From the IMG/VR virus record IMGVR_UViG_3300032291_001071, positions 1 through 20,250 of that record: a stretch of DNA of 20,250 nt, one strand, 5' to 3'. Each line of letters starts with the position of its first letter. Positions within the stretch are counted from its first letter, which is position 1. The translations under genes were made by a program, and so were the position numbers. This DNA comes from a virus. Positions 15,430-18,972 of the stretch are shown here, one piece after another. The notes beneath the pieces were generated by a model that saw nothing but the letters and a program-made list of their open reading frames with translations, was not told where the DNA came from and did not search any database.

Positions 15430-17603
15430 TGCCTATAACAGTCAAGCATTTAAAGGTATCAACCGTTCCTGATGCTGGGGATGACACACTTGTAGAACCG
15501 TCAGACTGGAATGCCGACCATACCTTAACTGGTTTAGGCACAATGGCAGAACAAAACGCTAATGCCGTAGCCATTACTGGCGGCACAATTAGCGGTGTAA
15601 CCATACCTGCTTCTAATGTAACAGGAACGCTAGGCGTACCTAATGGTGGTACAGGTGCAACAACCCTAACAGGTTATGTAAAGGGTACTGGCACAACGGC
15701 CATGACAGCATCGGCAACAATTCCAAACACAGACATTACAGGTTTAGGTACGGCATCGACTAAGGATGCTGGATCACCATTGGGCGTGGCTACTCTAGAT
15801 GCTGGCGGTAAAGTACCTGTTTCTGAACTACCAGCCGCAGTATTGGGCGCACTTAGCTATCAAGGAACATGGGATGCTGCAACCAACACTCCTACCCTTA
15901 CTTCTTCTGTTGGCACTAAGGGTTATTACTATGTGGTCAATGTTGCTGGTAATACTAACCTTAACGGGATTACTGATTGGCTTGTGGGCGATTGGGCAGT
16001 ATATAACGGGTCTATTTGGCAAAAGGTGGATAACACCGAAACCGTAACAAGCGTAAACGGGCAAACAGGCGCAGTGGTATTAACCACTACCAATGTAGCC
16101 GAAGGTACAAACGAATACTTCACAACCGCTAAAGCTAGGGCTTCAGTAAGTGCAGGCACAGGCATTAGCTACAACAGCACAACTGGCGTAATTACTAATT
16201 CAAACCCATCTTTGGGTGGTGATGTAGTAGGCCCAGCAAGTGCAACAGACAATGCAATAGCTAGATTTGATACCACTACAGGCAAATTACTGCAAAACAG
16301 CGTAGTCACAGTAAGTGATACAGGAGCAATTGCAGGTGCAACTACCATTACTGACATTGATTACATTGACTTTGATACGACCTATGCGACAACGCTAGGT
16401 GCAGGGCAATTAGGTTGGAATGGTAACGACACCCTTGGTTTAGGCATGATTGGCGGTAATGTCATTCAACACATTGGTGAAGACCAATATTTTTATGCCA
16501 AAGCTACTGCCACAATTACCAAAGGTCAAGTGGTTATGTTTACTGGCGCAGTTGGGGCTAGTGGCGTACCTACAGGCGCACCAGCTACAGGCATTACTGA
16601 TGGCACTTACATCATGGGTATTGCTGCCGAAAACATAGCAAACAACGGTTTTGGCTTAGTACAAGCGTTTGGAACGCTACGCAATGTCAATACAAGTAGC
16701 TATGCTGATGGCGATATTCTTTGGTACAACCCTGCCGTAGCTGGCGGTTTAACCAAGACTAAGCCTGTTGCGCCTAATCTTAAAGCACAAATGGCTGCCG
16801 TTATTAATGGCGGTTCAGCAGGTGGCGGTACGATTTTGATTCGTATTAGTGCAGGTTCTACCCTTGGTGGCACAGATTCAAACGCTCAAATTGACACACC
16901 TAGCAATGGTCAAATTATTACTTATGATGGATTAAACGGATATTGGAAAAACACCGATTTAACGGCTGGAACTGCAATATCTGTAGCTGAATCGTCTACT
17001 GGCGTATTAACCATTAACAATACAGGCGTTACTTCTGCCGTAGCAGGCACAGGAATTAGCGTAAGTGGTGCAACTGGTGCTGTAACTGTAACTAATACTG
17101 CCCCTGACCAAACAGTAGCTTTAACAGGTGGTACTGGAATATCAACTAGTGGTACATACCCTAACTTCACCATTACCAATACAGCCCCATCTAGCGGTGG
17201 TACTGTTACAAGCGTTACTGGAACTGCCCCAGTCGTATCGTCAGGCGGTAATACCCCAGCAATTAGCATGGCTGCCGCAACTGGTAGCGTAAACGGGTAC
17301 TTAACAAGCACAGATTGGACTACCTTTAATGGTAAAGCCAATGCGTTTACTTATACGACCAACTACATCCCGTATGGTCAAGGCACTACTACACCTAACC
17401 AAAACGCTAACTTCACCTTTGATGGCACTACCCAAACTGCCCCAATTCAACGGGCAAGTAACGGTATTCTTGTAAACAGCAAGTCTATATCTGCAAGTTA
17501 CACAATTGCAGCAACCGATAATGCGGTAAGTGCAGGGCCAGTAACCATAGCTTCAGGTCAATCGGTAACAGTTTCTAGTGGGTCACGCTGGGTAGTCCTA
17601 TAA
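15429..17603 (+). CDS. Tail-fibre-like / receptor-binding structural protein (724 aa)
   Basis: The protein is Gly/Thr/Ser/Asn-rich with low-complexity beta repeats such as VPNGGTGATTL (70-80) and VTSVNGQTGAVVL (206-218), which are typical of phage fibre shafts. Residues about 125-205 form a known fibre domain (LDAGGKVPVSELPA ... YQGTWDAATNTPTL ... DWLVGDWAVYNGSIWQK). A second domain near 325-500 includes VIQHIGEDQYFYAKATATIT, which I recall in aquatic phage virion proteins. The C-terminus (SGQSVTVSSGSRWVVL) resembles the end module of other fibres. It starts at a TAATG junction with the portal gene. The class is firm, but receptor binding is inferred. Confidence 0.8.
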   Translation: MPITVKHLKVSTVPDAGDDTLVEPSDWNADHTLTGLGTMAEQNANAVAITGGTISGVTIPASNVTGTLGVPNGGTGATTLTGYVKGTGTTAMTASATIPNTDITGLGTASTKDAGSPLGVATLDAGGKVPVSELPAAVLGALSYQGTWDAATNTPTLTSSVGTKGYYYVVNVAGNTNLNGITDWLVGDWAVYNGSIWQKVDNTETVTSVNGQTGAVVLTTTNVAEGTNEYFTTAKARASVSAGTGISYNSTTGVITNSNPSLGGDVVGPASATDNAIARFDTTTGKLLQNSVVTVSDTGAIAGATTITDIDYIDFDTTYATTLGAGQLGWNGNDTLGLGMIGGNVIQHIGEDQYFYAKATATITKGQVVMFTGAVGASGVPTGAPATGITDGTYIMGIAAENIANNGFGLVQAFGTLRNVNTSSYADGDILWYNPAVAGGLTKTKPVAPNLKAQMAAVINGGSAGGGTILIRISAGSTLGGTDSNAQIDTPSNGQIITYDGLNGYWKNTDLTAGTAISVAESSTGVLTINNTGVTSAVAGTGISVSGATGAVTVTNTAPDQTVALTGGTGISTSGTYPNFTITNTAPSSGGTVTSVTGTAPVVSSGGNTPAISMAAATGSVNGYLTSTDWTTFNGKANAFTYTTNYIPYGQGTTTPNQNANFTFDGTTQTAPIQRASNGILVNSKSISASYTIAATDNAVSAGPVTIASGQSVTVSSGSRWVVL

Positions 17604-18079
17604 TGTTTTCAACGGCTTTTCAGGCTAATGCGTTTCAAAATGACGCTTTTCAAGTCTACATTCCGCCACCGCCTGATAACCAAAAGACGGGTGGCGATGA
17701 TGCAAGCTGGACTGAAGACGATTTAAAACGCCTACGCAAGTTATCTGCAAAGATAGCTGAAAGGCAGCGCAAGTTACAGCAAGCTACCAAAGAAGCTAAT
17801 CAAGCAAGAAAACAATCTATTCGCAACTTAGTATCACCTGTTGCTAAAGTTAAGCAAACTAAAGTACAATCAATTCAAGAGGTTAAAGCTGATATACCGT
17901 CAGTCGATACACAAGAGTTACAACGGTCTATTAGCTACCTTGAAAGACAACGGGATAACATCCTTGAGGCAGTAGCTTACAGACACCAGCAATATCTCAT
18001 TCAAGATCAATTGCGAGTAATGGAAGCCAAACGCCAAGAGGAACTTGACGATGAGGCTGCATTATTACTACTGCTTTAG
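17603..18079 (+). CDS. Coiled-coil virion-like protein (158 aa)
   Basis: The N-terminus carries short repeats (AFQANAFQNDAFQ), a motif I know from small proteins beside phage fibre and portal genes, then a proline stretch (PPPPDNQ), followed by long Lys/Glu/Gln-rich helices predicted to form coiled coils (residues about 40-75 and 105-150). It ends in an acidic and leucine-rich tip (DDEAALLLLL). It starts at a TAATG junction with the fibre gene and overlaps the start of the next gene. Function unknown; an adaptor or head-tail connection role is possible. Confidence 0.75.
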   Translation: MFSTAFQANAFQNDAFQVYIPPPPDNQKTGGDDASWTEDDLKRLRKLSAKIAERQRKLQQATKEANQARKQSIRNLVSPVAKVKQTKVQSIQEVKADIPSVDTQELQRSISYLERQRDNILEAVAYRHQQYLIQDQLRVMEAKRQEELDDEAALLLLL

Positions 18080-18972
18080 ATCCACACGCACAATATAAGT
18101 TAGCCTACGATAACCTACACGCTGGCAGGTATGCTGCTGGATTTAGGCTATTTGAATATAGGTGGCATCCAGCCATTTTAGGCAACCAACAGATTCCATA
18201 CGACAAGTTGCCAAAAATTACTAAAGCTTGGCAGGGTGAATCGCTATTAGACAAAACCATAGTAGTACAAATGGAGCAAGGTTTTGGCGATATATTTCAA
18301 TACGCTAGGTTCTTGCCAGCCCTTAAAGTTATGGGTGCTAAAAAGGTAGTAGTTTTAACCATACCTGCATTGTTTGGCGTACTAGGCCAAATGGAATGTA
18401 TTGACCAGCTAACCAACCTTACAGAAGAAGGCCCAGCCGTAGAATGCGATTTATGGGTAGGTTCTATGTCCCTGCCCTATTACATTGACTGCGCTATGCC
18501 CTATGTAAAAGCCCTTTTTCCCGTTACAAACACTAAAGTAGTAGGCTCAGAAGGCTATTTTGATGCCGAACATAGTAATATCCCTAAAAAAGTAGGCGTA
18601 AATTGGTCAGCAAGTAAAGGTACATTGCATTGGATCAAGTCTATTTCAGCAGAACACATGGAAAAGCTGGTCGGAAGTGATGTATACAGCCTAAATCCTG
18701 AAACAGATGCAATGTTTAGACCGCTTCCTGACGATGGTTGGAAAAAAGACTGGTCAATTACAGCTAAACATATGAAAGCCATGCGTGGCGTGGTTACGGT
18801 AGACACAGGCACAGCACACTTGGCAGGTGCTTTGGGCGTGAAATGCGTAGTTTTGCTTCCTAAAGAAGAATTTGTTTGCTGGAGATGGAAAAATGCCCGT
18901 TGGTACGACAGCGTTTTGACCCTTAGACCTGATGAATACGATCAATTACCCGAAATTTTAAGGAGAATGTAA
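18064..18972 (+). CDS. Glycosyltransferase/heptosyltransferase-like protein, apparent ATT start
   Basis: The 302-residue protein has a helical N-terminal part with ALDPHAQYKLAYDNLHAGRY and GFRLFEYRW, as in the TPR-like start of this family, followed by a GT-B-like domain: EQGFGDIFQYARFLP at about 71-85 and VTVDTGTAHLAGALG at 244-258, like heptosyltransferase motifs. The frame between the previous TGA (18052-18054) and Leu49 has no ATG, GTG or TTG, although the homologous sequence clearly extends upstream. ATT 18064 has GAGG seven bases before it and gives a natural N-terminus (I/M-T-T-A-L-D-P). A start at TTG 18208 would lose 48 family-like residues. A sugar donor cannot be named. Confidence 0.7.
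   Translation: MTTALDPHAQYKLAYDNLHAGRYAAGFRLFEYRWHPAILGNQQIPYDKLPKITKAWQGESLLDKTIVVQMEQGFGDIFQYARFLPALKVMGAKKVVVLTIPALFGVLGQMECIDQLTNLTEEGPAVECDLWVGSMSLPYYIDCAMPYVKALFPVTNTKVVGSEGYFDAEHSNIPKKVGVNWSASKGTLHWIKSISAEHMEKLVGSDVYSLNPETDAMFRPLPDDGWKKDWSITAKHMKAMRGVVTVDTGTAHLAGALGVKCVVLLPKEEFVCWRWKNARWYDSVLTLRPDEYDQLPEILRRM

Follow-up and report, generated by a model that had tools for sequence, protein, structure and literature searches.

An ATT codon as the apparent start of a GT9-like glycosyltransferase gene at an overlapping junction in freshwater viruses of bacteria

A gene for a GT9-like glycosyltransferase in a virus record is very probably translated from an AUU codon at 18064-18066 (+ strand), or possibly from the adjoining AUU at 18061-18063, which a Shine-Dalgarno site would select and which the overlap with the upstream gene would impose; this reading is drawn from the comparison of sequences. 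ATT, which is rare as a start codon, is retained in many relatives within a large group of freshwater bacterial viruses, and the overlap appears to be the cause of the ATT start, a simpler reason, absent from the initial annotation, than the possible control of the kind described for infC. Comparison of the relatives brings out an open frame, constraint on the N-terminal residues, retention of the ATT, a Shine-Dalgarno site and the presence of ATG after loss of the overlap. The window referred to below is the whole virus record that was analysed, 20250 bases in length.

The overlapping junction and its relatives

Frame 1, which encodes the glycosyltransferase, stays open from 18055, immediately 3' of a TGA at 18052-18054, to a TAA at 18970-18972, and the gene counted from the ATT at 18064 comprises 302 codons (18064-18972, + strand). 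The first ATG, GTG or TTG in the frame is the TTG at 18208-18210 (+ strand), and the open reading frames of the window thus confirm the initial annotation, which had described a frame devoid of usual starts before this codon. In-frame ATT codons are found at 18061 and 18064; the ATT at 18061 lies 4 nt after a GAGG, and the GAGG (18053-18056, + strand), in which the upstream gene has a Glu codon (GAG), was correctly placed by the annotation at seven bases 5' of the ATT at 18064. The upstream gene (17603-18079, + strand, frame 2) encodes 158 amino acids with a conserved C-terminal tail, DDEAALLLLL, overlaps the glycosyltransferase gene in the neighbouring frame and ends with a TAG at 18077-18079 (+ strand).

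Relatives were collected as loci from scans of viral contigs from many metagenomes, the locus counts including repeats of the same contig. They were found to form three junction classes, with no mixed cases: an overlap that holds an in-frame ATT but lacks any usual start (338 loci, 137 distinct junctions), an ATG that shares bases with the upstream stop as ATGA (63 loci, 34 distinct junctions) and a separate ATG (49 loci, 19 distinct junctions), as in L252-L254. An in-frame ATT is present in all the 137 distinct overlapping junctions and a usual start in none of them; the position of the ATT varies between codons 3, 4 and 5 of the frame, one always being present, and the overlaps of this clade are 13-19 nt long. 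One contig, L042 (identical to L203), lies outside the ATT and ATG classes, as other sequence replaces the junction near the contig end. About 600 bases of unrelated, intron-like sequence (L042:1-640) occupy this position, with no usual start before the glycosyltransferase, and comparison of the insert with Rfam gave sub-threshold matches only and none at the cut-off.

A phylogeny of 183 proteins contains a branch with full support that separates a clade of 124 rows, which have ATT except for two nested ATG rows, L036 and L040, from the 59 rows of a sister group, all of which carry ATG, either fused to the upstream stop as ATGA or separate from it; ATT may have arisen once, and the relatives are not independent. 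The upstream gene of L036 stops ahead of a short frame that begins with GTG, and an ATG stands exactly at the position of the ATT; in L040 a gene for an HNH endonuclease sits in the junction and the glycosyltransferase begins with ATG at codon 8. The upstream tail of L040, DDEQALMLLL, is recoded as TTG ATG CTT TTA TTG TAA, without ATTATTACT. As both L036 and L040 carry ATG, the ATT seems to be abandoned once the overlap is gone. The start codon in relatives, which the initial annotation had proposed to examine, is thus ATT in the close relatives, ATG being confined to rearranged junctions and to the sister clade. The choice of the ATT at 18064 as the best start is favoured by its retention in 137 of 137 junctions, by the correctly placed Shine-Dalgarno site, by the limit of constraint in the frame (see below) and by the ATG that takes its place in two overlap-free relatives. 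As a separate observation, the HNH endonuclease genes (PF13392) of L040 (L040:2516-3004) and L273 (L273:1046-1504) are inserted between this gene pair in members of two different clades, and the stop codon of each HNH gene shares bases with the glycosyltransferase ATG in the form ATGA.

In the alignment the sister group has its ATG opposite codon 8, an NTA in the ATT group, so that the ancestor could have started there. Reinitiation after the upstream gene, independent of the ATT and for example at this NTA, would also suit the upstream stop, which lies 13-16 nt after the ATT, and the codon coincides with the ATGA start of the sister group. It is nevertheless improbable, as codon 8 may begin with any base (T47 G36 A23 C16), with no conservation, its second and third bases are dictated by the upstream stop, the ATT is never lost and the spacing of the Shine-Dalgarno site suits the ATT. 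A minus-one ribosomal frameshift within the overlap, raised as an alternative in the initial annotation, would join the glycosyltransferase to the upstream protein in one product, and the two frames are indeed correctly related and both open across the overlap. However, the absence of a classical slippery heptamer that had been remarked upon is borne out in the relatives, with no in-frame XXXYYYZ heptamer in any of 122 and no homopolymer longer than 4, and relatives in which the junction is separated or carries an insertion produce the glycosyltransferase on its own from an ATG, so that a frameshift is highly improbable. A third-frame start at ATG 18051 (ATGAGG...) was considered and rejected, as that frame ends after 15 codons, would need a second frame change and varies in position. 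RNA folding at the junction is unremarkable, its stability being not above that of shuffled sequences (z 0.71), and Rfam gave no match at the gathering score in the window, L036, L040, L042 or L111.

Amino-terminal coding sequence and identity of the glycosyltransferase

The sequence 5' of 18208 is real coding sequence, as judged by purifying selection, alignment with bacterial TPR-glycosyltransferases and confidently modelled helices. Among 121 relatives, pN/pS is 0.26 for codons 8-19 of the glycosyltransferase frame, 0.29 for codons 20-51 and 0.54 for codons 52-119; the value for codons 1-3 is 0.99, that is, unconstrained, and purifying selection begins after codon 3. The alignment with bacterial proteins in which TPR repeats precede a GT9-like domain begins at residue 4-9 of the phage protein, numbered from the ATT. 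AlphaFold gave a poor model with 9 sequences and a good one with 53 (mean pLDDT 91.6), in which helices span residues 7-19 and 23-31 from the ATT.

Since ATG, GTG and TTG are the only starts that standard gene finders allow, the gene would be called about 48 residues short, in the window and likewise in the relatives. A protein that truly begins at TTG 18208, the first usual start and the choice of such a program, with the preceding part untranslated, is very hard to credit given the strong purifying selection 5' of the TTG and the bacterial homologues that align ahead of it; moreover, the position of the TTG is not conserved, and a start there would delete the first 48 residues including the two helices. 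That the ATT arose from ATG through an error of sequencing or assembly, a single base change named in the initial annotation as grounds for discarding the start, has a negligible probability, as 137 distinct junctions from many metagenomes share the ATT, it is common to the close relatives, which already refute an error, and an ATG here would stop the upstream gene.

The most fitting description of the protein is a GT9-like glycosyltransferase preceded by a single TPR-like helical hairpin. The window protein scores 18.8 bits against the Pfam GT9 family (PF01075), below the curated cut-off of 22, and weak matches to PF01075 at E-values up to 0.1 were obtained for 51 of the 53 members, the best being 1.1e-5. 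For a putative GT9 (heptosyltransferase) fold, the best PDB matches are GT9 enzymes such as 3tov and WaaC, with E-values down to 6.5e-6 but a TM score of about 0.48. The earlier designation as glycosyltransferase-like therefore holds at the level of a distant GT9-type match and falls short of assignment to a curated family. Among annotated phage records, only two distant relatives of the glycosyltransferase were identified, and a search of these records for relatives of the upstream gene found none.

Constraint from the upstream tail and the Shine-Dalgarno site

The second base of the glycosyltransferase start codon is the first base of a codon of the upstream gene. ATT followed by A, which is present in every distinct overlapping junction, is thus read upstream as TTA (Leu). 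In the same register, NTG followed by A gives the stop TGA and ATA the stop TAA, ATC gives Ser, ACG and AAG give Arg and AGG gives Gly, so that of the nine single-base variants of ATG, ATT alone keeps the upstream Leu. The codon-table argument is reasoning from the genetic code and the junction counts are measured. As the next codon starts with A, any NTG would write TGA in the upstream frame, and ATGA is unusable in the ATT clade without losing the Leu tail. The ATT is thus apparently retained because a usual start at this position would cut short the overlapped upstream gene. The register provides a rule that can be checked elsewhere, as for any start placed in this way over upstream Leu codons NTG is excluded and ATT is the sole fitting near-cognate codon.

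The upstream protein ends in an acidic, Leu-rich tail (DDE..LLLLL; 18047-18079 in the window) in all relatives, with or without an overlap, and Cys or Trp occurs within the last 8 residues of no upstream tail. Since the tail is kept in relatives that lack the overlap, it is selected in its own right, perhaps as a docking peptide. The upstream stop is TAA or TAG in 137 of 137 ATT junctions and TGA, as part of ATGA, in 34 of 34 junctions of the sister group. The upstream Leu codon partly holds the second and third bases of the ATT, and its letters are therefore not wholly due to the start. Despite a similar Leu tail, an in-frame ATT occurs within six codons 5' of the ATG in just 8 of the 34 ATGA junctions, and the contrast between the ATT and ATGA classes gives a Fisher p of 5e-24, a value that is not a true probability since the sequences are related.

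The two classes also differ at the Shine-Dalgarno site, which lies at the right distance in the ATT group and is missing from the ATGA group. The mean energy of the anti-Shine-Dalgarno duplex (16S tail against the 19 nt before the start) is -6.3 kcal/mol for the ATT class and -1.2 kcal/mol for the ATGA class. A conserved Glu is written as GAG followed by G in 119 of 137 ATT junctions compared with 7 of 34 ATGA junctions, although the genes of the window favour GAA over GAG for Glu (160 versus 52); the site in the ATT class thus results from the choice of GAG before G for the conserved Glu. Since Shine-Dalgarno pairing in the ATGA class is weak, this class probably depends on translational coupling, whereas the ATT class has a site of its own. 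The ATGA stop-start overlap is used by the sister clade for the same gene pair, the overlap of the ATT clade being longer.

Proposed initiation and comparison with known non-canonical starts

Ribosomes would initiate at the AUU, chosen by the Shine-Dalgarno site inside the end of the upstream gene, and the initiator tRNA would presumably still insert fMet. An NTG start with its following A would stop the upstream gene, a loss that AUU would spare the Leu tail, and ribosomes terminating at 18077-18079, 13-16 nt 3' of the ATT, might assist. We infer the initiation at the ATT, the preference for 18064 over 18061, a lowered yield and any effect of coupling or IF3; control by IF3 or coupled reinitiation is plausible and putative. 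A further proposal, which we consider doubtful, is that the weak AUU may act as a regulatory element tying glycosyltransferase output to ribosomes delivered by the upstream gene and to the balance of IF3 and ribosomes, and hence to the stage of infection, and that the same register may force AUU in other phage genes truncated by gene finders.

AUU starts are known, infC among them, and four ATT genes are listed for E. coli (PMC1805508); E. coli infC, which encodes IF3, has a conserved AUU that lowers expression and against which IF3 discriminates (cited in PMC1805508 and PMC5472188). A conserved AUU start would be common to infC and the phage gene; in infC it serves autoregulation, whereas the phage AUU lies where two genes overlap and the gene encodes a product other than IF3. 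For the AUU of pcnB the proposed role is regulation, not overlap, and this is a bacterial gene, in contrast to the overlap case of the phage start. In E. coli pcnB the AUU start limits translation (Binns and Masters 2002, as cited in PMC13009471). The AUU of Staphylococcus aureus cvfC1, demonstrated by ribosome profiling and reporters, is conserved among staphylococci and has a strong Shine-Dalgarno site, according to passages of PMC13009471. It resembles the proposed phage glycosyltransferase start in being conserved in relatives and backed by a Shine-Dalgarno site; however, it belongs to a host gene, not a phage, and those passages of PMC13009471 name no reading-frame overlap as its cause.

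An AUU within another reading frame starts a separate product, RcsD-Hpt, as tested by mutation (PMC10191623); that AUU lies inside a frameshift-disrupted gene, whereas the phage AUU lies at a conserved gene junction. The GTC start of Streptomyces sigR is conserved across species, has a strong Shine-Dalgarno site and is repressed by IF3 (PMC5472188), and is therefore similar as a conserved non-canonical start with a strong site, differing in the codon and in having no overlap as its reason. Non-AUG reinitiation in E. coli has been demonstrated with matching mutant initiator tRNAs (PMC2268962). A partial literature search yielded no description of a DNA phage gene with a conserved AUU start. The ATT, ATGA and separate-ATG versions of one gene pair represent natural controls for the study of AUU initiation and translational coupling.

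Short frames of 11-13 codons, started by GTG and preceded by a strong Shine-Dalgarno site, were observed between the two genes in L252-L255 and L036 (L036:1368-1409), and in L252 the TGA of the short frame overlaps the glycosyltransferase ATG; such a frame looks like a small leader for coupling. In junctions of the L111 type (L111:3478-3510), GCG replaces the GTG of the short frame and an ATT is left 6 nt after AAGGAG, which is possibly another ATT start, of a 9-codon frame.
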